DNA of 64,000 bases from Sipunculus nudus (lineage: Eukaryota > Annelida > Sipuncula > Golfingiida > Sipunculidae). Numbering within the stretch: position 1 is the stretch's first letter; each line of letters begins with the position of its first letter. The translations under genes and the position numbers were made by a program. Of the stretch, positions 1-63,051 are shown one piece after another. The notes beneath the pieces are model-generated. The model saw nothing but the letters and a program-made list of their open reading frames with translations, did no database searches and was not told the origin of the DNA. The DNA lies in NCBI GenBank assembly GCA_026874595.1, contig CM049308.1:14405501-14469500 (forward strand), in the 5' to 3' direction.

Positions 1-330
1 AACCAAATGGACTTTGAAGCAGAATCTTTACAAATATTTATTAATCCCCGTCCATAAAGGAGGAAGGACTGCTAAAATGGCCGGCATGTGTTTAGCTGTT
101 CTTTTGTACGTCCGTCCTTAGTGCTGGCCTTCTATCCATCCATCCTGCCCCATTCTTTTATCACATATCTCTTAGACCCTTGAAGCCTTCTTCATGAAAT
201 TTTACAGACTTACTCAGCACATGACTGACATATGATTATAACCCTTAAGGTGGTGCCACCTGTGTTAGCAAATTTCTGGTCTCTTTCACTTTATCACTGA
301 TGCTACACTTTTCTAGTTAAACATATGGCA
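1..330 (+). repeat. Degenerate hairpin/VNTR-family repeat fragment
   Basis: The segment has a short tGTACGTCCGTCC-type tract near 108-118, and AGGTGGTGCCACCT at 248-261, a one-base variant of the palindrome found in the Helitron arrays further on. It ends near ttCTAGTTAA (313-316 is CTAG followed by T), like the 3' ends of the Helitrons at 28428 and 63051, but no clear 3' hairpin is visible. I read it as an old, diverged member of the same repeat community. No coding sequence is recognised. Confidence 0.4.
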
Positions 331-24672: not shown

Positions 24673-26975
24673 ACGTGTTATCTTTATCACCGATATATGT
24701 GTGTGTGTGTGTGTTAGTTCTAAACCAAATCAGACTATTTAATTCATCCTCACTGGTACAGGACAAAAGTACACTTTAGGATTGTTGTTAATATGACCCA
24801 TCAAGAATTATGGCCAATTATGCAATGGCTAAAGTAATATTATATATAAATAGGCTAATATTAAATTAGTATTAGTAATAGGAGAGCTAAGCGAGCAACA
24901 TTTTACACAGGGATTAACAAACCATCATGAAAACTCTTCATTGGCATCCCAGTGGAAGGAAGGGGGGGGGGGGGGGGGGGGATGTCAATATTATTAACTG
25001 TCAAAGGAAATTTTTTTTTTTGGGGGGGGGGGGGGGGGTTAGGTGTTTGGCTTATTAATTAGAACTCTGCTGCTAGCATGAACACTTCAGTTGTGACTTA
25101 TTATAATGTCTTAAATGGAAGGTTCTTTTAAGTATTGATTTAAATTCCTTGTGCTTGATTTGAGATCTGCAACTTTATAACTGTATAACAATTAACATGC
25201 AGTGTATGCCGAGCTATTTCTGTTGAAAATTCATGACGAGGCTAATGTTCCCTGGTGACACGTTCACTACATTCATGACACCCCAGGGAAATTTGAAGGT
25301 TTGAAAAACTTTTGGAAAGGTTTGAAGGTCATTTGAATGGGCAAGCTGGTGTGAACTGCTGGAAAATCGGTGCCACCAGAAATGACATGAGGTCAGGGAT
25401 GGTAAGATTCTGCCATTGCTTTTTCTGCCGTAGGTTTATGCCCGGCAACTGCTGCAGCAAAAATACCTTATTGCCCTTGTTTCTGTCATAAGGGCAGAAA
25501 TACCCTGAAAACTGCCATAAAATAAATATATAAATTAACTATTTTAAATATGATACAGCAAATACATCAGTAATATAACAGCAATGAAAATGAACAAGGT
25601 GTAAACTTGTAACAGAATATATTGATAATTACTGTAAGGTCAAGGTACTCCCTGAAGGCCTAAGAAACCTCAACTATAGGGGGGGGGGGGGGAGGATGAC
25701 TGATCACTCAGTCAATAATAATAAGTTAAACTTGAGCAAGGTTCTGGGCAAAAAGTCAGAGGCTCTGTTAGCATCATCATAGTCAGCAATACTAGTATGT
25801 CATGCATGAAAGAGCACATTATCTTTCCACATCACTCTCATCAGTAGTAACCACTGGACTTGTGAACCTTATCCCCTTAAATGGAAAGCCCTACTGGAGC
25901 TAGGCTCTGATATATCATTACAGGTACAGGAATAATGACTATGTTAACAAGTTATCGCATATCAGCAAATCTAAAGGGCTGTGATAATGACTTTACCTGA
26001 GCCTAGGAACCCATGTGCCACACATACACATGGTCTGGAGCAGAACCTACAGGACACTACAGGCTCTAAGAGCTGAGACTGCATAATCCCAGTCAACTGG
26101 AATGATTATAATCATGCGTTACATACACCCGACCTTTTCAAGTCAAGAAGAGCCCTGTGACTATACCACATGAGTCACAATAGTTTTATTATCAATCTCT
26201 TAGTCATAAATTTGGGCAAATTTTTTTTGCAAAGTGCTGTTTTCAGTTGTCAATTAAAACCAGTTGCTGAATCCTGGACCCCTCTCCCTACATAGAACAT
26301 GCAAACCTTGTTTGTCACAGAAAGTGAAGAGGAGCATTGGGCATTATTATCATCAACTCAGTTTAATAAAATGACTTTCATTTCTTAACATATTATAAAT
26401 GCTTGTATTTAGGACAGCTTTCGATTTATTAAAGTTACTATCTCTTGTTAAAATACAGTATATATATTTTGATAATTTATATATATATATCTCAATATGT
26501 GTGTGTGTTTATGATATATTCATTTCATTTGTGGTACTTATGACATAAATTCAAAATTTTATTTTATACATATCATAGGTACATATTATATATCATATAA
26601 TATTTAAACTTATTTATTTTAAACATATATATTATATTTATAATCATATAACCATATACATAGTTTATATCTAAATATAATTTATAAATACAACACATTT
26701 ATTTTTTTTACATAAATTATTTTAAAAGGAAAAAAGCAAAACATATAAAAAAATATTATTACATCCTGCAAACACATAGGAGCATAGGAAAAAATTACAT
26801 CAAAGCCTTGTCTAGCCCTAATAATTTCTTTTTTTAAACTAATTAAATATAAATTTGGGCAAGTTAATAGTTTCATTTATTTCTTAGATATAGTTTCATT
26901 TATTTCTTAGATAAGGAAAAAAAATTGGATTTAAATTGAATTACCCTGTATAGCTTTATTAATGGTTTTATTGTT
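24666..26975. other. Putative intron, no recognised gene
   Basis: Includes a (GT)n run near 24698-24713, three G tracts (24962-24981, 25022-25038, 25679-25692) and a very AT-rich stretch at 26400-26940 with many TATATA strings. 26882-26911 is a short direct duplication (AGATATAGTTTCATTTATTT). No exon recognised. Confidence 0.4.
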
Positions 26976-28428
26976 TCCGCCAAAACAGAGTTTTGCGGAT
27001 GCTATGTTTTCAGCCCACCGCCGCCGCCGCCCGAAGGTGTCCGGAGAACTCCTCCGTAACCGCTGGGCGGAATTTTATGAAACCCGGGATTATGTTCGGG
27101 TCACATGTGAACTGCTGCGCCCCGATTTTGTTTTGACCTCTGACCTTTCCTCTGCGCTCTGCCTCCGTTTGTGCATCTGTTTCCACACATAAACCCACAT
27201 ATCTCGGGAACCGTTTGACTGATCAGGAAAATTTTTTTGCACAAATGTAGCCCTTGGCGAGCTTTATAACATACACAAAAAATAGTGGGGCCACCTGTAA
27301 CCATGTTTGCACAGTGTCCATCTGTTCGTCTGCCTTGGGTTAAAATCACTCATATCTCTGCAGTGACTTGACTAATTCACCTGAAATTTGGCATGCATAT
27401 ACATCCTGGATAGCTTTTCTGATTTTATGACAGGTGGCGCCACCTACATTCATGTTTACGCTGCAGACATCCAAGCTCATATCTTGGGAACCGTTTGACC
27501 GATCAGGAAAATTTTTTTGCACAAATGTAGCCCTTGGAGAGCTTTATAACATACACAAAAAATGGTGGCGCCACCTGCAACCATGTTTGCACAGTGTCCA
27601 TCTGTTCGTCTGCCTTTGGTTAAAATCACTCATATCTCTGCAGTGACTTGACAAATTCACCTGAAATTCGGCATGCATATACATCCTGGATAGCTTTTCT
27701 GATTTTATGACAGGTGGCGCCACCTACATTCACGTTTACGCTGCAGACATCCAAGCTCATATCTCGGGAACCGTTTGACCGATTGGGCCAAAATTTTGCA
27801 TGTGTATAGATCTCACATAGCTCTTTATCATACGCAAAACTGGTGGCGCCACCTGCAGACATTTATGCACAGCTCCTGTCTGTTTGTCTGCCATGGGATA
27901 AAATCACTCATATCTCGGCAGTGGTTTGACATATCTGCCTAAAATTTTGCAGGTTTATACATCCCCGACAGCTCTCTTGATTTTATGACAGGTGGCGCCA
28001 CCTGCATTCTAGTTTATGCAGCAGACATCCAAGCTCATATCTGGGGAACCGTTTGACCGATTGGGCCAAAGTTTTGCATGTGTATAGTTCTCACATAGCT
28101 CTCTATCATAAGCAAAACTGGTGGCGTCACCTGCAACCATTTTTGCTCAGCATCCATCTGTTTGTCTGCCACGGGCTAAAATCACTCATATACATGTAGT
28201 GGTTTGACTTATCTGCCTTAAATTTTGCATATGTATACAACTTGGACGGCTTTCTGGATTTTGTGCTAGGGGGGGCAACCTACATACACAATTTGGCTGC
28301 AGTCATCCATGCTAATATGCAACACTTCACTCTATTTCCCCTTGCCATTCAATCCATGTCTCACTTCACCCGTTCCACTCTGATTTAGGCAGATACACAT
28401 AGTCGCTTGTCGACTACCCGTATTCTAG
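26976..28428 (+). mobile_element. Non-autonomous Helitron, copy 1
   Basis: The 5' terminus starts TC and folds at once: TCCGCCAAAAC, loop AGA, GTTTTGCGGA (26976-26999). The 3' terminus has stem AGTCG (28401-28405), loop CTTGT, stem CGACT (28411-28415), nine bases (ACCCGTATT), then CTAG, followed by T. A 3' hairpin plus CTRR|T is the Helitron signature. The body is a tandem array of a ~278-bp dimer of two related half-units, each carrying GGTGGCGCCACC. No Rep/helicase coding sequence, so it needs an autonomous partner. The base before TC is T, not the usual A. Confidence 0.8.
27284..28280 (+). repeat. Tandem dimer array with phased GGTGGCGCCACC
   Basis: Palindrome cores start at 27284 (variant), 27433, 27564, 27713, 27842, 27991, 28120 (variant) and 28269 (variant). 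Spacings alternate about 149 and 129-131 bp. The phrases AAGCTCATATCTCGGGAACC and AAATCACTCATATCTC alternate with the same period, showing that the two half-units are diverged copies of one ~140-bp ancestor. Confidence 0.85.
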
Positions 28429-40234: not shown

Positions 40235-40925
40235 AGCTCAGCTGACTATGAGTCATCTGAGCTATAGTCGTGGTCCATTGGCCATGGTTTGTCCATCTGT
40301 CCGTCCGTTCGTTCCTAGATGTGGCACGTTTTTAAACCGTAAGACCTAGGAATCCAAAATTCGGCATAATGTTAGATGTCCCCAAGATCTCCTACCAAGC
40401 CGAAACCTGGGTCTTTGCGACTTCGTCCTTTGAGAAATTAAGGAAAAAGCTCAATTTTTTATTTAAAAACCTATTTTCACACTTCAGGAGTGCCTAATAT
40501 CAAAACCACTCATCTGTTTTTCCCCATATTTACCATAAATATTCATCTATTTAGTTCCTATGTACATGCCAGAAATTAAGTCTGTTGAGTATAATTTCTT
40601 TAAGTTATGGGCCCAAACATAATGGACTTGGTAGAAAATCAGGAAAAATATTTACTCACTTAACATGAACAATTTTGAAACCAGAGTCTATTTTCCCAAG
40701 TATATAACTTTGTTTAATTAAGATCTGAATTTTGTAAATTTTTTAAGTTATTAGCATAAAAATATAATCAGTACCTTAAATTTTATCCCAACTTTGACCA
40801 TGGCACATTTTTTCCTGTAAGTACCATTGATTTAATTTTCACAGCATATAAACATAAGTATTTAATTTGTTTAAATCTGAAATTTGAAAATCAAAGCTTG
40901 AAAATTAGGCTAGTTATTGATTTTT
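40235..40925 (+). repeat. Family C element, 5' partial copy (C1)
   Basis: Starts with the 29-base hairpin AGCTCAG-C-TGACT-ATG-AGTCA-T-CTGAGCT (40235-40263), then TATAGTCGTGGTCC, a GTCCATCTGTCCGTCC tract and a ~545-bp core containing CCCAAGATCTCCTACCAAGC. It stops at GTTATTGA where the next copy begins with no spacer, so only the 5' portion is present. Confidence 0.75.
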
Positions 40926-44828: not shown

Positions 44829-47455
44829 AGCTCAGCTGACTATAAGTCATCTGAGCTATAGTCGTGGTCCATTGTCCGTCGTCCGTCCGTCTGTCCGTCC
44901 GTCCGTCCGTCCGTCCGTAGATGTGGCACGTTTTGAAACCGTAAGACCTAGGAATCCAAAATTCGGCATAATGTTAGATGTTCCCAAGATCTCCTACCAA
45001 GCCGAAAACTGGGTCTTTGCAACTTTGTTCCTTTGAGAAATTAAGGAAAAACCTCAATTTTTTATTAAAAACCTATTTTCACACTTTAGGACTGCCTAAT
45101 ATCAAAACCACTCATCTGTTTTTCCTCATATTTACCATAAATATTCCTCTATATAGTTCCTATGTACATGCCAGAAATTATGTCTGTATTATTTAATTTA
45201 AAAAAGTTCTGGGCCCAAACATAATGCATTTTGAAAAATATAAGGAAAGATATTTGATCACTTAACACAAAAAATGTTAAAGCTGTGGACCTTTTTTCCA
45301 GTAATATAACTTTAATTAATCAATATTAAACTGTATACCCAAAATTAGATGAAAATCCTTTAAATTTTTTAAAATATTAATAAAAATAAAAAATTGGTAC
45401 CTTAAATTTTGCCCAACTTTGACCATGGCACGTTTTTTTCCTGTAAGTACTGTGGATTTAATTTTCACAGCATGTTTTTGTCAGCATTTCAACTGTTAAC
45501 ACCAAAAATTTGAAACCAGTTGATCAAAAACTGTAGATTTTAATAAAGTTTTCAGGCACCTTGTAACATATTGTTTACATCAAGCTAGTGTTATGCAGTT
45601 TGCAAAAGCTCAGCTCCCCAGCTTCAGCTCTAAGTTCCTTAAATTCAGCATACAGTTAGATGTCTCCAAAATCCCCTACCATGCCAAGAATTTGGTCACT
45701 AGGACTTAATACCTTCAAGATATTAATGAAAAACTTCATTTTTCCATTAAAAACCCATTGTTACACTTCAAGACTGCCTAATATCAAAACCACTGATCTG
45801 ACTTTAATCATAAACAATATACATATTTTTCATTCTCTATGCACATCCCAGAATGATGTCAGTATTGCGTAATTGTTTTAAGTTATGGGCCCAAACATAA
45901 TGCACTTTGTAAAAAATCAAGAAATATATTTACTCCCTTAACAAGGGCATTGCTAGAGATTTTTTTGTCAGGGATGTAACATTATTTAATCAAGATTCAA
46001 TTGAATACCCAAAATTAGTTCTGAATTTTTCAAATTTTATAAGTTATTAGTATAAATATAAAATTAGTACCTTAAATTTTGCCCAACTGTGACCATGGCA
46101 CGTTTGTTTCCCGTGAGCACTGTTGATATAATTTTCATATCATGCACACATAAGGATTTCAGCTTTTTAGTTTAGAAAGCTGAAAGAAATTGGCCAAAAA
46201 TTGTAGCTTTTATTAATGTTTTTTATGAGACCCTGTCAGACTTTGGCTCTCTCCAGCCCCTCTTGAGTCACCTGTATGTTGACCTTGTTGACCTTTCATC
46301 AAATTATGCACGCTTGAGGCGAGGCATACAGGAATCCAGGCAGCTTATGGCCAGCCACAGTTGATCCAGGTGTCCAACCCAACTCATCTAGTAGTTTTAA
46401 CCAACAACATAACAATAAACAACAAATTAATAAATTTTTATTGGTTTTTAATAACAAATTAAAGAAAAATAGAAAAGGAATTTGTTAGTTTATAATAACA
46501 GGAAATTAACTTGCAGTTACTGATGATATAAGGATCTTGTATCCATGGGTAGAATGTCACATATTCCAAATAACACCATGCAGTCACCTATGGCATTTTT
46601 CAGTTCAATTTTAATGATAAAGAAGTAAATCATATTATTCATTACTAATCATTAGGGATCATATGAAGGAAATTAATGATAGACAAAGATGCAGTTGATA
46701 ATATTAATGTAGATTCCCACTGTGTCTAGTGTGTACATTGATGTGAAATTAGTCCAAAATGAATTTTTTACAGTTATTTTTTAATATAAATAAAAGCCAT
46801 AAAACCAGGTACTTATGATCATTATTTAAATGTGTGAATTTTGTATATTCTGGGTTCTCAACATCATTGTTTGGTGAAAATTGAATAAATACCAGACATG
46901 GTGTGAATACTTTGTAATTGTATTTAAATACGAATTTGATTATGTACTCCATTATAAAATTTCTTGCATAAAGAATGGGAATTCAGGTAAAAATGAAAGT
47001 ATATGAATACTCGTGCAGATACTTTCAAAATGTATTCATGAATGCATTCATGAATATATTCTTTAATATTATTTTAATAATCATATCAGTTATATTTCAT
47101 TTTAAAAAATCATATGATTCTCTTATTATTTTTAATAAAAATTATATTTGGGACAATATTTGTAATTTTTTTTAATAAATAGTTAAACTCTTATATTATA
47201 TGTTCTGCTTATAAGTTATATGGCCAAGTCAAAAACTGTGTGACAGTAGTACTCCAGTTGTTAATAAAATAAATGAAATCAATCCTCTTCCCTGTCTCCA
47301 AAGGTTCCATCAAAATCATACATAAGCTAAACAACAACAACTCATAATACAGCTTATATTTATTACCACACAAAACCAGCATGTGCCTCATTTCTAAATA
47401 ATATTTTTTTATAATATATAACAGCTGAGCGTCGTGACCCATAGGTCCCTTGTTT
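44829..47455 (+). mobile_element. Family C hairpin-ended element, full-length copy (C3)
   Basis: 5' hairpin at 44829-44857 (loop ATA), (CCGT)n tract, core monomers with the marker near 44974 and 45655 (681 bp apart), a 3' unique region and the terminus CAGCTGAGCGTCGTGACCCA then TAGGTCCCTTGTTT. Length 2.63 kb, close to copy C2. It abuts copy C4 directly. No coding potential. Confidence 0.75.
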
Positions 47456-47529
47456 AACTCAGCTGACTGTAAGTCATCTGAGCTATAGCGATCACTCTTT
47501 GTCCGTCGTCCGTCCGGCCGTCTGTCCGT

Positions 47530-49062
47530 TAACAGGGCACAAGTCGTAACCACTGGATTTAGAACCTCGTAACTTGGGATTCTGAGAGGTCCATGAAAAA
47601 TCTCCTTGGAAACCAGAAATTAGGTCTCTGTTACCCATATCCTTCGAGCTATGGGGCCCCAAAGTACCCCCCAGAAAAGTAAAAAATTTCATACAAAAAC
47701 TTCAATGTCTCATTAACTACTTGACTGATGGTCATGATTTTTGGCATACATATTGATCATGAGATTTTCCATCACTTCCTGCAGACTGGTGGCGCCACCT
47801 GTATTTTTCGATTTTTTACAAATTTTTTTCTCTATTTTTGAGACCTTTAAAAATGTGAACATCTGTTAACAAGGCACAAATCTTAAAGACTGGACCTAGA
47901 ATCTTAATTCTTGACACACTGAGAGGTCCATGAAAAATCTCCTTGGAAACCAGAAATTAGGACTCTGTTACCCATATCCTTTGAGCTATGGGGCCCCAAA
48001 GTACCCCCCAGAAAAGTGAAAAATTTCATACAAAAACTTCAATATCTCATTAACTACTTGACTGATGGTCATGATTTTTGGCATACATATTGATCATGAG
48101 ATGTACCATCACTTCCTGCAGACTGGTGGCACCACCTGTATTTTTTTATTTTTTACGAATTTTTTTCTCTATTTTCAAGACCTTTAAAAATGAAAACATC
48201 TGTAAACCAGGCACAAATCCTAATGACTGGACCTAGAATCTTAATTCTTGACACACTGAGTGGTCCATGAAAAATCTCCTTGGAAACCAGAAATTAGGTC
48301 TCTGTTACCCATATCCTTAGAGCTATGGGGCCCCAAAGTACCCCCCAGAATAGTAAAAAATTTCATACAAAAACTGCAATATCTCAATAACTACATCACT
48401 GATGGTCATGATTTTTGGCATACATATTGATCATGAGATGTTCCTTCAGTTCTTGCAGACTGGTGGCGCCACCTGTATTGTTCAATTTTTTACGATTTTT
48501 TCCTCTATTTTTTAGATCTTTAAGGATGCTGTCATCTGTTAACTTGGCACAAAACATAAAGACTGGACCTAGAATCTTCATTCTTGACACACTGAGAGGT
48601 CAATGAAAAATCTCCTTGGAAACCAGAAATTAGGTCTCTGTTACCCATATCCTTTGAGCTATGGGGCCCCATAACCCCCCAGAAAAGTAAAAAATTTCAT
48701 ACAAAAACTTCAATATCTCATTAACTACATCACTGATGGTCAAGATTTTTGGCATAAATATTGATCATAAGATGTTCCATCAGTTCCTGCAGACTGGTGG
48801 CACCACCTGTATTTTTCAATTTTTACGAACTGTTTTCTCTATTTTTGAGACCTTTAAAAATGTGAACAGCTGTTAACAGGGCACAAAACATAAAGACTGG
48901 ACCTAGAATCAATCTTGACACACTGAGAGATCCATGAAAAATCTCCTTGGAAACCAGAAATTAGGACTCTGTTACCCATATCCTTAAAGTTATGGGGCCA
49001 CAAAGTACCCCCACAGAAAAGTCAAAAATTTCATACAAAAACTTCAATATCTCATTAACTAC
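47530..49062 (+). repeat. 335-bp satellite array
   Basis: The phrase GTTAACAGGGCACAA recurs near 47527, 47866, 48200, 48537 and 48870. Each unit carries AAATCTCCTTGGAAACCAGA, CTATGGGGCCCCAAAGTACC, CATGATTTTTGGCATACATA and GGTGGCGCCACC or GGTGGCACCACC (48125 and 48796 have the A variant; 47788 and 48462 the perfect form). About 4.5 copies, high similarity, suggesting recent homogenisation. Confidence 0.9.
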
Positions 49063-51148
49063 AACACGATTTTTCTGAAACTTACACCAATTATCGGGTC
49101 ACATGTGAACTGGTGCCTAACCAATTTGCGTTGACCTCTGACCTTTCCTGTCTGCCAAGTGTCCATTTGTGCGTCTGTTTCATCACATGAACCCTCATAT
49201 CTCAGGAACCGTTTGACCGATCAGGAAATAAAATTTATACAAATGTAGTCCTTGGATAGCTTTATAACATACACAAAAAAATGGTGGCGCCACCTGTAAC
49301 CCTGTTTGCACAGTGTCCATCTGTTCATCTGCCTTGCGTTAAAATCACTCATATCTCTAGAGTGAATTGACTAATTCACCTGAAATTCGGCATGCTTATA
49401 CTTCCTGGATAGCTTTCTTGATTTTATGACAGGTGGCGCCACCTATATTCACATTTACGTTGCAGACATCCAAGCTCATATCTCGGGAACTGTTTGACCT
49501 ATCAGGAAATAAAATTTATACAAATGTAGCCCTTGGATAGCTTTATAACATACACAAAAAAATTGGAGGGGCCACCTGTAACCATGTTTGCACAGTGTCC
49601 ATCTGTTCATCTGCCTTGCATTAAAATCACTCATTTCTCTGCAGTGAATTGACTAATTCACCTGAAATTCGGCATGCTTATACATCCTGGATAGCTTTCT
49701 TGATTTTATGATAGATGGCGCCACCTAAAATCTAGTTAACGCTGCACACATCCAAGCTTATATCTCAGGAACAGTTTGACTGATTGGGCCAAAATTGTCT
49801 ATGTGTTTAGATCTCACATAGGTCCTAATCATACAAAACTGGAGTTGCCACCTGCAACCATTTTTGCACAGTGTCTGTCTGTTTGTCTGCCATGGGATAA
49901 TGTCACTCATATCTCGGCAGTGGTTTGACGTATCTGCCTAAAATTTTGCAGCTGTATACATTCATGATAGCTTTCTTGATTTTATGACAGGTGGCGCCAC
50001 CTACACTATAGTTTACGCTGAAGACATCCAAGCTCATATCTCAGGAACCGTTTGACTGATTGGGCCAAAATTTTGCATGTGTATAGATCTCACATAGGTC
50101 TTTATCATACACAAAACTGGAGGGGCCACCTGCAACCATTTTTGCACATTTTGCACAGCGTCTGTCTGTTTGTCTGCTGAGGCCTAAAATCACTCATTTC
50201 TCTGTAGTGGTTTGACATAACTGCCTAAAGTTTTGCAGGTTTATACATCCTGGACAGCTTTCTTGATTTTATGACAGGTGGCGCCACCTAAATTCATGTT
50301 AATGCTGCACACATCCAAGCTCATATCTCAGGAACAGTTTGACTGATTGGGCCAAAATTGTCTATGTGTTTAGATCTCACATAGGTCTTTATCATACAAA
50401 ACTGGAGTTGCCACCTGCAACCATTTTTGCACAGTGTCTGTCTGTTTGTCTGCTATGGGATAATGTCACTCATATCTCAGCAGTGGTTTATTGTATCTGC
50501 CTAAAATGTTGCAGCTTTATACATCCTGGATAGCTTTCTTGATTTTATGACAGGTGGCGCCACCTACATTCTAGTTTACGCTGCAGACATCCAAGCTCAT
50601 ATCTCGGGAACCGTTTGAACGATTGGGCCAAAATTTTGCATGTGTATAGATCTCACATAGGTCTTTATCATACACAAAACTGGAGGGGCCACATGCAACC
50701 ATTTTTGCAAATTTTGCACAGCTTCTGTCTGTTTGTCTGCTGAGGCCTAAAATCACTCATTTCTCTATAGTGGTTTGACATGACTGCCTAAAATTTTGCA
50801 GGTTTATGCATCCTGGACAGCTTTCTTGATTTTATGACAGGTGGCGCCACCTAAATTCTAGTTTGCACGGTGTCTGTCTGTTTGTCTGCCGTGGGTTATA
50901 ATCACTCATACACATGTAGTGGTTTGACTTTTCTGCCTAAAATTTCGCATATGTATACAACTTGAACAGCTTTTTGGATTTGTAGTAGGTGGCACAACCT
51001 ACATACACATTAAGGCTGCAGACATTCAGCTAATATGCGACATACCTCACTCTATTTCCCCTTGCCACTCAATCCATGCCTCACTTCACCCGTTCCACTC
51101 TGATTTTGGCGGATACACATAGTCACTTGTGGGCTACCCATGTTCTAG
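49063..51148 (+). mobile_element. Non-autonomous Helitron, copy 2, nested in C4
   Basis: Body and 3' end match copies 1 and 3. The array has about seven dimers with palindrome cores at 49283, 49432, 49565 (variant), 49714 (variant), 49841 (variant), 49990, 50119 (variant) and on to about 50838. It ends ...TGTTCTAG at 51148 followed by T. The 3' hairpin is degraded (AGTCACTTGTGGGCT). The 5' hairpin is missing: the first recognisable Helitron sequence is TCGGGTCACATGTGAACTGG at about 49098, preceded by ~35 bp of unknown origin, so the 5' end was deleted or replaced. Confidence 0.75.
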
Positions 51149-51332
51149 TTTTTAAAGCTTACACATTTTTTCTCCATTTATAGATATATAAATACAGACT
51201 TAATCTTGGCCTGTTGGTTAATCTGTTTGATGCTTCAGTTGAATGAGTATATACTACCATTCTGATGATAAAATTTCCTTTTGTGAATCTCTTCCCAGTC
51301 AGCTGAGCGTCATGACCCATGGGTCACTTGTT

Positions 51333-59099: not shown

Positions 59100-59685
59100 T
59101 GATTATTGTCAGAGCCATCAGTGATCAGATTGATTCTTGTCAGAGCCACCAGTAATGGTATTGCTTCTTGTCAGAGCCATCAGTGATCATATTGCTTCTT
59201 GTCAGAGATATCAGAAATCATATTTTTCCATGTCAGTGCCATCAGTGATCATACTGATTCTTGTCAGAACCACCAGTAATCATATTTCTTCTTGTCAGAG
59301 CCATCAGTGATCAGATTGATTCTTCTCAGAGCCACCAGTAATCATATTGCTTCTTGTCAGAGCCATCAGTGATCATATTGCTTCTTGTCAGAGCCAACAA
59401 TGATCATATTGCTTCTTGTCAGAGCCACCAGTAATCATATTGCTTCTTGTCAGAGCCATCAGTAATCATATTGATTCTTATCAGAGCCATCGGTAATCAT
59501 ATTGATTCTTGCCGGAGCCATAAGTAAAACTGATTCTTGTCAAAGCCACCAGTAATATTGATTCTTGTCAAACCACCATTAAAATTGATTCTTGTCATTA
59601 AAGAGTCATTTATAATTTTATGAATATTTGACAGAGCCATCAGTAATCATATTGATTCTTGTCTGAGCCAATGAAAATCATATAA
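59100..59685. repeat. 31-bp minisatellite
   Basis: The unit GTCAGAGCCAyCAGTrATCA then TATTGnTTCTT is 31 bp. It repeats about 13-14 times cleanly from 59110 to about 59520, then degrades to 59685. The period is not a multiple of three and there are no unique spacers, so it is neither coding nor a CRISPR array. Confidence 0.9.
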
Positions 59686-60363: not shown

Positions 60364-61737
60364 AGCTCAGCTGACTGTAAGTCATCTGAGCTAAAGCGAT
60401 CACTCTTTGTCCGTCGTCCGTCTGTCTGTCTGTCCATCCGTTTGTCTGTCCGTCCGTTAACCTGGCACAATCGTAACTGCTGGACCTAGAATCTTGTAAC
60501 TTGACATTCCGAGAGGTCCATGAAAAATCTCTACGGAAACCAGAAATGAGGTCTCTGTTACTCATATCCTTCGAGCTATGGGGCCCCAAAGTACCCCCCA
60601 GAAAAGTAAAAAATTTCATACAAAAACTTCAAAATCTTATTAACTACATCACTGATGGTCATGATTTTTGGCATACATATTGATCATGAGATGTTTCATC
60701 AGTTCCTGCAGGCTATTTTTCGTTTTTTAACGAATTTTTTCTCTATTTTTAAGACCGTTAAAGATATGAACATCTGTTAACAGGGCAGAAATCATAACAA
60801 CTGGACCTAGAATCTTCATTCTTGACACACTGAGAGACCTATGAAATGTCTCCATGGAAACCCGAAATTAGGTCTCTGTTACCCATGTCCCTCAAGCTAT
60901 AGGACTCTGAAGTATCCCTCAGAATAATGGACAGTTTGATACAAAAGCTGAAGTATCTGAACAACTAATGCAGAGATCACCATGATTCTTTGCATGGATA
61001 TTGATTATGGAGTGTTTCATAAGTGAAATTAGGTCTCTGTTACCCATATCCCTCAAGCTATAGGACTCCGAAGTATCCCTCAGAATAATGGACAGTTTGA
61101 TACAAAAGCTGAAGTATCTGAACAACTAATGCAGAGATCACCATGATTCTTTGCATGGATATTTATTATGGAGTGTTTCATCAGGTTCTGCAGACTGTTG
61201 GTGCCATTTATAAATTATTCAATTTTTCAAATTTTTTTTCTCCCTTTTTGAGACCTTTAAGGATGTTGTCATCTGTTAACATGGCACAAATTGTAACAAC
61301 AGGACCTAGAATCTTCATTCTTGTCATGCAAGGAGGCCCATGAAAAGCGTCTGTGGAAACCTGAACTTAGGTCTCTGTTACCTATATCCTTCAAGCTATA
61401 GGACTCTGAAGTATCCCTCAGAATAATGGAAAATTTGATTCAGTTGAAGGATCTGAACAACTAATGCAGAGATCACCATGATTCTTTGCATGGATATTGA
61501 TGATTAAGTCTTTTTATTAGTTTCTGCAGACTAGTGGAACCACCTGTATTTTTGTTAAAGTTAATGCATTTTTTTCTCTATTTTTGAGATATATAAATAC
61601 AGTCACAATCTTGGCCTGTTGGTTAATCTGTTTGATGCTTCAGTTGAATGGGTATATACTACCATTCAGATGATAAAATTTCCTTTTGCGAATCCCTTCC
61701 CAGTCAGCTGAGCGTCATGACCCATGGGTCACTTGTT
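60364..61737 (+). mobile_element. Family C element with 335-bp-type core (C5)
   Basis: The 5' hairpin AGCTCAG...CTGAGCT (60364-60392, loop GTA) is followed by AAAGCGATCACTCTTTGTCC, a (GTCT)n tract and core units of the 335-bp satellite type. The 3' terminus has CAGCTGAGCGTCATGACCCA and palindrome TGACCCATGGGTCA (61718-61731). The unit with CTTGGCCTGTTGGTTAATCT near 61613 matches the right flank of the Helitron in copy C4. Length 1.37 kb, no ORF. Confidence 0.75.
60864..61185 (+). repeat. 161-bp near-identical tandem duplication inside C5
   Basis: GAAATTAGGTCTCTGTTACC starts at 60864 and again at 61025, and the sequence between repeats almost exactly (both include CAGAATAATGGACAGTTTGA and CACCATGATTCTTTGCATGG). 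Much more similar than the neighbouring units, so a recent slip or unequal exchange. Confidence 0.85.
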
Positions 61738-61862
61738 TGTGAATCATTGCCTGTTATTCAGTATAATTGATATTATGATTTAAATGAAACATATGTTCAA
61801 AGTAAATCAATGTCAAATGAACTGCTGTTGCCAGGAGTATTTTGATTTATAGTATATTTGTA

Positions 61863-63051
61863 TCCGCCAAAACAGAGTTTTGCTGATACTATGTTTTCAG
61901 CTGCACACCGCCGCGGCCGCCGCGGCCGCGGCCGCGTAGGTGACCGGAGAACTCCTCCGTAACAGCTGGGCGGAATTTTATGAAACCCGGGATTATGTTC
62001 AGGTCACATGTGAACTGCTGCGCCCCGATTTTGTTTTGACCTCTGACCTTTCCTCTGCGCTCTGCGTCCGTTTTTGCGTCTGTTTCCACACATAAACCCA
62101 CATATCTTGGGAACCGTTTGACGGATCAGGAAATTTTTTTTGCACAAATGTAGCCCTTGGAGAGCTTTATAACATACACAAAAAATGGTGGCGCCACCTG
62201 CAACCATGTTTGCACAGTGTCCATCTGTTCGTCTGCCTTGGGTTAAAATCACTCATATCTCTGCAGTGATTTGACTAATTTACCTGAAATTTGGCATGCG
62301 TATACATCCTGGATAGCTTTTCTGATTTTATGACAGGTGGCGCTACCTACATTCATGTTTACGCTGCAGACATCCAAGCTCATATCTTGGGAACCATTTC
62401 ACCGATTGGGCCAAAATTTTGCATGTGTATAGATCTCACATAGCTCTTTATCATACGCAAAACTGGTGGCGCCACCTGCAGCCATTTTTGCACAGCTCCC
62501 ATCTGTTTGTCTGCCATGGGATAAAATCACTCATATCTCCGCAGTGGTTTGACATATCTGCCTAAAATTTTGCAGGTTTATACATCCCCAACAGCTCTCT
62601 TGATTTTATGACAGGTGGCGCCACCTGCATTCTAGTTTATGCAGCAGACATCCAAGCTCATATCTTGGGAACCGTTTGACCGATTGGGCCAAAGTTTTGC
62701 ATGTATATAGTTCTCACATAGCTCTTTATCATACGCCACACTGGTGGCGCCACCTTCAACCATTTTTGCACAGCGTCCAACTGTTTGTCTGCCATGGGCT
62801 AAAATCACTCATAAACATATAGTGGTTTGACTTATCTGCCTCAAATTTTGCATATGTATACAACTTGGACGGCTTTCTGGATTTTGTGGTAGGTGGCGCA
62901 ACCTACATACACCATTTGGCTGCAAACATCCATGCTAATATGCAACACTTCACTCTTTTTCCCCTTGCCACTCAATCCATGCCTCACTTCACCCGTTCCA
63001 CTCTGATTTAGGCGGATACACAAAGTCGCTTGTCGACTACCCGTATTCTAG
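61863..63051 (+). mobile_element. Non-autonomous Helitron, copy 3
   Basis: The 5' TC at 61863-61864 follows A (the canonical A|TC context) with hairpin TCCGCCAAAAC/GTTTTGCTGA. A CG-rich stretch of CCGCGGCC units lies at 61908-61936. Palindrome cores at 62187, 62336 (variant), 62465, 62614 and 62743 are spaced 149, 129, 149, 129 bp. The 3' hairpin is AGTCG (63024-63028), loop CTTGT, CGACT (63034-63038), then ACCCGTATT and CTAG ending at 63051, followed by T. Length 1189 bp, about one dimer shorter than copy 1. No Rep/helicase ORF. Confidence 0.85.

Follow-up and report, generated by a model that had tools for sequence, protein, structure and literature searches.

Non-autonomous Helentrons (HINEs) are described as having subterminal inverted repeats, an inner inverted repeat, a microsatellite, central repeats and a 3' palindrome (PMC7492417, PMC4067079). 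The DINE-1/HINE elements of Drosophila and mites have the same subterminal inverted repeats (subTIRs), central repeats and 3' palindrome, and the passages describing them mention no common internal palindrome in the central repeats (PMC4067079). In the oyster Crassostrea gigas, Cg_HINE and the Cg170/HindIII satellite likewise have the non-autonomous Helentron plan, with satellite-like central repeats and T-rich insertion (PMC7492417, PMC11136912, PMC8268682). Some of their central-repeat clusters have two relatively conserved segments, which are compared here, by description only, with the ATATCTC and GGTGGCGCCACC segments reported below. A widespread central-repeat palindrome of this kind does not figure in the passages that describe the oyster elements. 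Much of the dispersed satellite DNA of oysters is reported to come from Helentron central repeats (PMC7492417, PMC8268682).

In the Helentron repeats of bivalves, both conserved motifs and palindromes are already on record. DTC84 of Donax trunculus, likewise a bivalve tandem-repeat element, has a conserved palindrome near the repeat junction, and among the pearl/CvA tandem-repeat elements of bivalves CvA has a microsatellite-like segment in place of the palindrome (PMC5139131). BIV160 monomers contain two well-conserved motifs while the rest diverges, and two conserved motifs are common to BIV160 and Cg170 (PMC5139131). DTC84 and BIV160 too are compared with our elements by description. More generally, satellite monomers often contain conserved motifs and palindromes, for which a role in spreading has been suggested (PMC12628747, PMC5139131). 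The module reported here, with its palindrome GGTGGCGCCACC, may or may not equal the motifs of BIV160, Cg170 or DTC84. Four short strings of the module are absent from the available text of PMC5139131. Among 5.39 million open-access papers, the exact string GGTGGCGCCACC is listed for a single one, which concerns an endochitinase.

Other mobile elements also carry sites of architectural zinc-finger proteins, such as the Su(Hw) array of gypsy and the CTCF sites of SINE B2, where binding is proven; for the present elements such binding is a proposal. The Su(Hw) array keeps the chromatin of the gypsy retrotransposon open, insulated or transcribed in the germ line.

Here we describe a palindrome in the repeats of Helentron-like elements in the window, a stretch of 64 kb from the genome of Sipunculus nudus. 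The observation is real and larger than first noted. Why Helentron central repeats exist is a question which such a conserved site addresses, and a short site that outlives the rest of its repeat across families offers a handle on what the central repeats are for.

Carrier elements and their palindromes

Judged from their structure, two groups of elements, F1 and F2, have the plan of non-autonomous Helentrons (HINEs), and the assignment covers these two groups. F1 elements start with GTATCCGCCAAAAC...GTTTTGCGGATAC and end with GGCGGATAC...AGTCGCTTGTCGACT...CTAG. F2 elements start with AGCTCAGCTGACTG...CATCTGAGCTA, continue with a GTCC microsatellite and 337-bp repeats, and end with CAGTCAGCTGAGC...TGACCCATGGGTCAC TTGTT. 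Both have subterminal inverted repeats (AGCTCAGCTGACTG / CAGTCAGCTGAGC in F2, GTATCCGCC / GGCGGATAC in F1), an inverted repeat beside the 5' subTIR (CATCTGAGCTA and GTTTTGCGGATAC, respectively), a microsatellite with central repeats (in F2, GTCC/GTCTGTCC with units of 337 bp; in F1, runs rich in GCC with units of 276-280 bp) and a 3'-end palindrome (TGACCCATGGGTCA in F2, AGTCGCTTGTCGACT in F1). T-rich flanks were seen by eye at many of the listed F1 and F2 ends. Canonical Helitrons start with TC, insert between A and T, and end in CTRR, preceded at about 11 bp by a hairpin. A CTRR-type Helitron 3' end, made up of the hairpin, 9 bp and CTAG (window copies 1 and 3), is found in F1 only; the F2 3' end is CTTGTT, unlike the F1 CTAG. 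Five F1 5' ends read tGTATCCGCC or tGTTTCCGCC, and the F1 start may precede the TC because the bases before it are also common to the ends. The name Helitron, used in the preliminary description, is right at the superfamily level because F1 and F2 have the HINE plan and F1 also has the CTAG of classical Helitrons.

The genome contains at least 143 matches to Helitron_like_N, some within open frames of more than 2,200 aa, so that autonomous partners may be active. Three of the matches, at 48.53-48.59 Mb of contig C7, are ~30 kb apart and have nearly equal scores. Protein coding by the repeats was rejected because 3 divides none of the unit lengths (278, 280 and 337 bp). Ten of the 14 stop-to-stop frames of at least 110 aa in the window were scanned against Pfam and matched no family. 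Rfam gave no match at the gathering threshold in the window, and a known structured RNA was rejected.

The scan of the 64-kb window found 32 sites within two mismatches of GGTGGCGCCACC where 0.37 were expected, a number reached by none of 100 dinucleotide shuffles of the window. In the F1 arrays near 27, 49 and 62 kb the 276-280-bp unit consists of two related half-units, A and B, each with GGTGGCGCCACC in intact or decayed form. Successive steps, counted over some palindromes with two or more mismatches as well, are 149, 131, 149, 129, 149, 129 and 149 bp in the array at 27284-28280; 149, 133, 149, 127, 149, 129, 158, 127, 149, 129, 158 and 148 bp in the 49-51 kb array; and 149, 129, 149, 129 and 149 bp in the 62 kb array. 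The alternation of 149 and about 129 bp first noted in these three Helitron-like arrays is therefore confirmed with exceptions: of the 13 A-to-B steps, 11 measure 149 bp and two 158, and the B-to-A step is 127-133 bp save for one of 148. The proposed origin of the dimer by duplication of a monomer is supported because half-units A and B are homologous. The final B unit of each F1 array (28269, 50988, 62892) has its own decayed form ending in CAACC (GGGGGGGCAACC, GGTGGCACAACC and GGTGGCGCAACC) and looks like a separate lineage.

Two further carriers had been missed. In the 337-bp array at 47582-49067 the dodecamer, or a form of it with one base changed, recurs every 334-337 bp, and the single-copy element at 165-260 has GGTGGTGCCACC at 249. 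The F2 copy at 60364..61732 has repeats without a palindrome within two mismatches. Spacing depends on the family (~149, ~130 and ~336 bp in different arrays), yet the palindrome is retained. The suggestion that a mean step of ~139 bp reflects nucleosomes was rejected because of this variation among families. A copy of a terminal signal was likewise rejected, the palindrome being unlike the terminal hairpin of either F1 or F2.

Features of the carrier elements, their palindromes and the module (positions in the window)
Feature	Position	Strand
F3 single-copy module, ATATCTC to GGTGGTGCCACC	165..260	+
F1 copy 1, Helentron-like non-autonomous: 5' subterminal repeat TTTCCGCCAAAAC and inverted partner, central array, 3' subterminal repeat, hairpin, CTAG	26974..28428	+
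Palindrome, A unit, AGTGGGGCCACC, 2 mismatches	27284..27295	+
Palindrome, B unit, perfect	27433..27444	+
Palindrome, A unit, perfect	27564..27575	+
Palindrome, B unit, perfect	27713..27724	+
Example of the ~95-bp module, ATATCTC to palindrome, A unit	27759..27853	+
Palindrome, A unit, perfect	27842..27853	+
Palindrome, B unit, perfect	27991..28002	+
Palindrome, A unit, 1 mismatch	28120..28131	+
Decayed palindrome, terminal B unit, GGGGGGGCAACC, 3 mismatches	28269..28280	+
F1 copy 1, 3' subterminal repeat GGCAGATACACA and terminal hairpin AGTCGCTTGTCGACT	28388..28415	+
Chimeric element: F2 5' end, 337-bp array, F1 array without F1 5' end, F1 3' end, F2 3' end	47456..51327	+
F2 337-bp central repeats; palindromes at 47788, 48125, 48462, 48796	47582..49067	+
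F1 central array within the chimeric element; several A palindromes are GGAGGGGCCACC or GGAGTTGCCACC	49273..50999	+
F2 copy: 5' subTIR AGCTCAGCTGACTG, GTCC microsatellite, repeats, 3' subTIR, terminal palindrome TGACCCATGGGTCA at 61718-61731	60364..61732	+
F1 copy 3, 5' subterminal repeat to CTAG	61861..63051	+
F1 copy 3, palindromes at 62187, 62336, 62465, 62614, 62743, 62892; four perfect, two with 1 mismatch	62187..62903	+
Module signature: ATATCTC start 81-87 bp before GGTGGCGCCACCT		

The module, its abundance and its conservation

What is conserved is a module of ~95 bp, which starts with ATATCTC and has the palindrome followed by T as its 3' landmark. In the window ATATCTC or a one-base variant begins 81-87 bp upstream of the palindrome (81-87 bp in A, 81 in B, 83 in the 337-bp unit and 84 in the single copy). 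The preliminary description had the sequence between palindromes drifting, which is right in direction and incomplete, since the ~85 bp upstream form a recognisable homologous module. In 20 stretches of 10 kb chosen by place (L009-L028), 32 palindromes with up to two mismatches are preceded at 75-92 bp by ATATCTC with at most one mismatch. By the same rule 17 listed palindromes with up to one mismatch are without it, although in some of them a further decayed form, for example AATCTC, can be seen. Sorting by eye gives at least six repeat groups with the module in common (F1, F2, F3, F5, F6 and F7), those beyond F1 and F2 having first been noticed through the palindrome itself. The sharing of the palindrome by the families and its fixed place are direct observations. 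The module is taken to be old. From the pairwise table of half-units, computed with free end gaps and including many short pairs, only the clear A-B, A-F2 and B-F2 pairs were used.

Exact GGTGGCGCCACC occurs 111,729 times in the 1.43-Gb genome (153 contigs, with the window on C3), and the reversed word used as a control occurs 14 times. The latter is a low yardstick because the reversed word has two CpGs against one and the DNA is CpG-poor (observed/expected 0.40 in the window). Among the first 100 exact places listed, at the start of contig C1, distances of 149 bp occur 14 times, of 129-131 bp 13 times and of 335-337 bp seven times. Patterns that leave out the palindrome find 17,120 F1-B, 7,367 F2 and 933 F1-A units genome-wide, counts that are not comparable because their anchors differ. 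Unit rows were the first 100 places listed, from the start of C1; the F1-A rows span the whole of C1 and the beginning of C2, and 47 have their letters listed.

A census of 12-mers that was not told the target covered 25 stretches (250 kb) and took words found in at least six stretches, with simple sequence excluded. AGGTGGCGCCAC and GGTGGCGCCACC were found in more stretches (8 of 25) and with more flank clusters (6) than any word that does not overlap the palindrome; overlapping words tie with them. Among the non-overlapping words, CCCATGGGTCAC and AACAAGGGACCT came next with 4 clusters, followed with 3 by AGTCAGCTGAGC and others. The runner-up words are mostly F2 terminal signals, which serve as a natural positive control. 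The exact word was in 8 of 20 stretches at first and in 8 of 25 after the addition of L029-L033, five later stretches from which exact GGTGGCGCCACC is absent. These counts are not independent because the copies are related. A dense satellite is marked by words in L009-L028 like CTTTGGCCACAAAC and ATACTGAAGCAT, each of which occurs 150-180 times, always within one 10-kb stretch. Pattern scans of viral, bacterial and archaeal sequence collections gave no match.

Conservation across families was measured in pairs of 103 modules, 15 of the initial 118 having been dropped because they had been fetched through the palindrome (L001, L002, L004); pairs with fewer than 45 common columns were excluded. 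At an upstream identity of 40-50% the palindrome still reaches 76% (79% if the CpG is left out), compared with 60-65% for the next best 12-column block, which surrounds ATATCTC, and 39-50% for the median block. The palindrome is 70-86% identical at upstream identities of 55%-80%, and 81-88%, somewhat poorer than the rest, at 90-95%. Such a near-flat identity is expected if the site is never missing from source elements and decays independently in each copy. To score the palindrome, its closest match was taken within 10 bases of the predicted place for the multi-family model, 4 for the pairwise comparison and 5 for the single-family models, which raises its identity slightly; control places had equal positional freedom in the model tests and the blocks of the pairwise comparison did not.

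Models of the upstream part, blind to the palindrome, gave the same picture. A multi-family model found 140 modules and none in reversed DNA. In 104 of 139 modules, a set which includes 10 training units and the L001, L002 and L004 modules, the palindrome was at the predicted place within 3 mismatches, and in 35 it was not; a control place ~60 bp upstream scored 0 of 139. Single-family models were judged by their weak matches (E above 1e-7). The F1-only model gave 78 matches and one in reversed DNA; 16 of its 29 weak matches had a palindrome with up to two mismatches, one had three, and 12 had four or more, as expected of matches partly due to chance. Its control places were within 4 mismatches in 0 of 87 cases. 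Several of the 16 have E values of 0.04 to 0.7 and would not otherwise be credible, and all 16 lie outside the window's three F1 arrays. With the F2-only model (46 matches, none reversed) 7 of 19 weak matches were within two mismatches, and with the F5-only model (22 matches, three reversed) 6 of 14; the respective controls were within three mismatches in 0 of 57 and 0 of 42 cases. The weak matches of these last two models include F1 units.

Within families, models with the palindrome masked retained 28 of 35 rows for A, 30 of 47 for B and 31 of 33 for F2, the dropped matches having missed the palindrome or flanks. Without the central CpG, the palindrome diverges from the majority base by 0.082 (A), 0.047 (B) and 0.058 (F2). 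Non-CpG G/C sites elsewhere in the unit diverge by 0.218, 0.172 and 0.198, respectively, and are thus 2.7-3.7 times more variable. Among 12-base windows the palindrome ranks 4 of 129 (A), 2 of 126 (B) and 25 of 127 (F2), so other stretches are about equally well kept.

Among young copies protection is slight and scarcely present. Of 100 F1-B units picked without reference to the palindrome, six with indels were dropped, which left 94 with 82 unique sequences. Their ten non-CpG palindrome sites diverge by 0.026 against 0.074 at outside non-CpG sites, private variants number 0.50 per site in the palindrome against 0.65 outside, and the palindrome is 17th among 50 twelve-base windows. In 100 F2 units the divergence is 0.027 against 0.089 for all 25 outside sites, some of which are diagnostic of subfamilies, and private variants number 0.50 against 1.00 per site. 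A palindrome changing no more slowly than its flanks was what the preliminary description set against constraint, and by the private variants, the rank of 17 among 50 and the 81-88% identity of the palindrome in the closest pairs this is partly the case in young copies.

The central CpG is the most variable part of the palindrome, with 27 and 30 changes in 247 copies at its two sites; the other sites of AGGTGGCGCCACC have 1 to 15. C-to-T or G-to-A transitions account for 48 of the 57 CpG changes, which hints at germ-line methylation. Compared with other CpGs of the units the central one changes at about 0.24 against 0.33 in A, 0.12 against 0.36 in B and 0.31 against 0.23 in F2, and is therefore the steadier in the two F1 half-units, though not in F2. 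CpG decay thus does not account for the conservation, and the frequent change of the central CpG means that the site tolerates its loss.

The early view of the palindrome as a constrained site holds across families (0.76-0.79 where upstream identity is 0.40-0.50) and in the blind models, and is weak among young copies. The conservation at family level and its weakness at copy level are both observed directly. Because the signal is strong across families and weak among young copies, the constraint acts on source elements and not on each insertion: element lineages lend it support, single copies hardly any.

Possible readers of the site

The majority palindrome is identical in F1-A, F1-B and F2. 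The F1-B site is a full 14-bp palindrome, AGGTGGCGCCACCT. A T follows the palindrome in 63 of 63 and 27 of 28 modules of the two main groups of the pairwise comparison; modules with T as left neighbour invariably have T on the right as well (63 of 63), so that their reverse strand reads AGGTGGCGCCACCA, usually preceded by C. Of 247 copies read in the CAGG orientation, a single one has a change at the A of AGGTGG. The next partner pair has 5 against 15 changes and the following pair goes the opposite way, 14 against 8. The asymmetry of the arms is small and inconsistent, and the site is near-symmetric with a mild lean to the AGGTGGC strand. AGG to AGA makes up 12 of the 14 changes at that base, a bias that would fit an AGRTGGC core. 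The site may be a homodimer dyad or an asymmetric zinc-finger site that is self-complementary by chance.

These patterns suggest that the site is read by something in the cell and is needed for the spread of its carriers, and from them we infer protein binding to the palindrome. Our preferred explanation, held with middling confidence, is that the palindrome is the cis-acting protein-binding site of an ancient ~95-bp HINE-repeat module, kept by selection on source elements. The module would build the central tandem repeats of non-autonomous Helentron (HINE) elements and related repeats, with the putative binding site at its 3' side. Elements whose repeats retain the site would leave more copies, and an inserted copy would then decay almost neutrally. 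The most likely binder would be a C2H2 zinc-finger protein or an architectural protein of the host, to which one strand would present (C/T)AGGTGGC(G/A)CC, and arrays of the site might keep element chromatin open, insulated or transcribed in the germ line. A host-protein site would best fit a sequence that is short, near-symmetric, tolerant of spacing, repeated, kept in sources and lost in copies.

The reader is perhaps a CTCF-like zinc-finger protein, with AGGTGGCGC as core. The CTCF consensus is CCASYAGRKGGCRSY, with the core YAGRKGGCRSY and CCA upstream. CTCF disfavours methylated sites, and the hint of germ-line methylation at the central CpG counts against this reading. The (C/T)AGGTGGC(G/A)CC strand of the palindrome corresponds to the CTCF core, and CTCF as the reader is offered as a lead. 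The oriented majority CAGGTGGCGCC matches YAGRKGGCRSY in F1-A, F1-B and F2; the CCA before the core is not matched in the majority of F1-A, F1-B and F2 rows. Most CTCF sites are described as non-palindromic (PMC5498337), and in a cephalopod CTCF sites are reported at domain borders (PMC10658181). The listing of AGGTGGCGC as a printed CTCF motif was rejected because the listed string is a rice sequence in a table. That Helentrons seeded about a hundred thousand, often clustered, CTCF-type or architectural sites, kept by selection at the transposon level and not by host exaptation, we consider doubtful. If the reader is an architectural protein, the elements would be a large source of chromatin-organising sites.

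It is possible, if unlikely, that the site is read by the machinery of the element itself (the Helentron Rep/helicase/endonuclease or RPA), as a start or pause of replication or a point at which repeats are gained or lost. The site lies in the amplifying part of rolling-circle elements, and the at least 143 Helitron_like_N matches would supply such machinery. The conserved palindrome of DTC84 near the repeat junction is a parallel, as are the phBglII400 breakpoints, 13 of 16 of which are described as falling inside a 12-bp palindrome (PMC5139131). In L019 and L025 an F1 5' end lies ~10 bp past an F2 palindrome, though there is a T-run there too. However, the ends and hairpins of F1 and F2 differ and none is like GGTGGCGCCACC, yet the palindrome is common to both, and the F2-F1 junction in the window (near 49068) lies away from the palindrome.

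We think it quite improbable that the palindrome was inherited passively, as an old, slow-changing or conversion-homogenised sequence without function. The nearly equal private changes of young F1-B copies (0.50 in, 0.65 out) are what this would predict, and other stretches are as well kept (ranks 4/129, 2/126, 25/127 and 17/50). Against this, inserted copies mutate in the palindrome much like other sequence, hence it is no cold spot, and the majority is identical in F1-A, F1-B and F2 with a flat identity over deep divergence. Non-CpG G/C sites elsewhere vary 2.7-3.7 times more, and conversion tracts of 12-14 bp between unlike flanks would be implausible.

A site for a transcription factor of the E2-box or E2F type is very improbable. 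CAGGTG is an E2-box and TGGCGCCA an E2F-like motif. Most copies contain CAGGTG when read in one direction (C at position y in 232 of 247), and TGGCGCCA is similar to E2F half-sites; the conservation, however, spans both arms and more than six bases, the T-rich flanks of E2F sites are absent and the central CpG is the least conserved part. Least probable of all is a hairpin or cruciform (GGTG-GCGC-CACC) of DNA or RNA, the cruciform having been raised in the preliminary description. Perfect self-complementarity speaks for it, as does the position of the most variable part in the would-be loop at the centre. The stem, however, has four or five bp, and as DNA its -2.5 to -3.7 kcal/mol are ordinary, being equalled by 14 to 84 out of 200 shuffles; variants such as GGAGGGGCCACC and GATGGCGCCACC break it without a change in the partner.

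Composite and neighbouring elements

The chimera at 47456-51327 combines two HINE kinds, the F1 array and F1 3' end standing within an F2 element. At 47425-47490 of the window a HINE-like 3' end, GACCCATAGGTCCCTTGTTT, is directly followed head-to-tail by a 5' end, AACTCAGCTGACTG; rolling-circle transposition can leave neighbours of this kind. Three more 5' ends, of an F2-like subfamily (e.g. AGCTCAGCTGACTATAAGTCATCTGAGCTATAGTCGTGG), are found at 40235, 40926 and 44829. A 31-bp tandem repeat of 18.6 copies (TGATTCTTGTCAGAGCCATCAGTAATCATAT) occupies 59100-59670, and at 60864-61181 a 161-bp piece of the F2 repeat is tandemly duplicated with 98% matches, a recent event. The two F1-type 5' ends located ~10 bp past an F2 palindrome are near 3117 of L019 (minus strand) and near 7659 of L025 (plus strand), in each case in the T-run that follows the palindrome.
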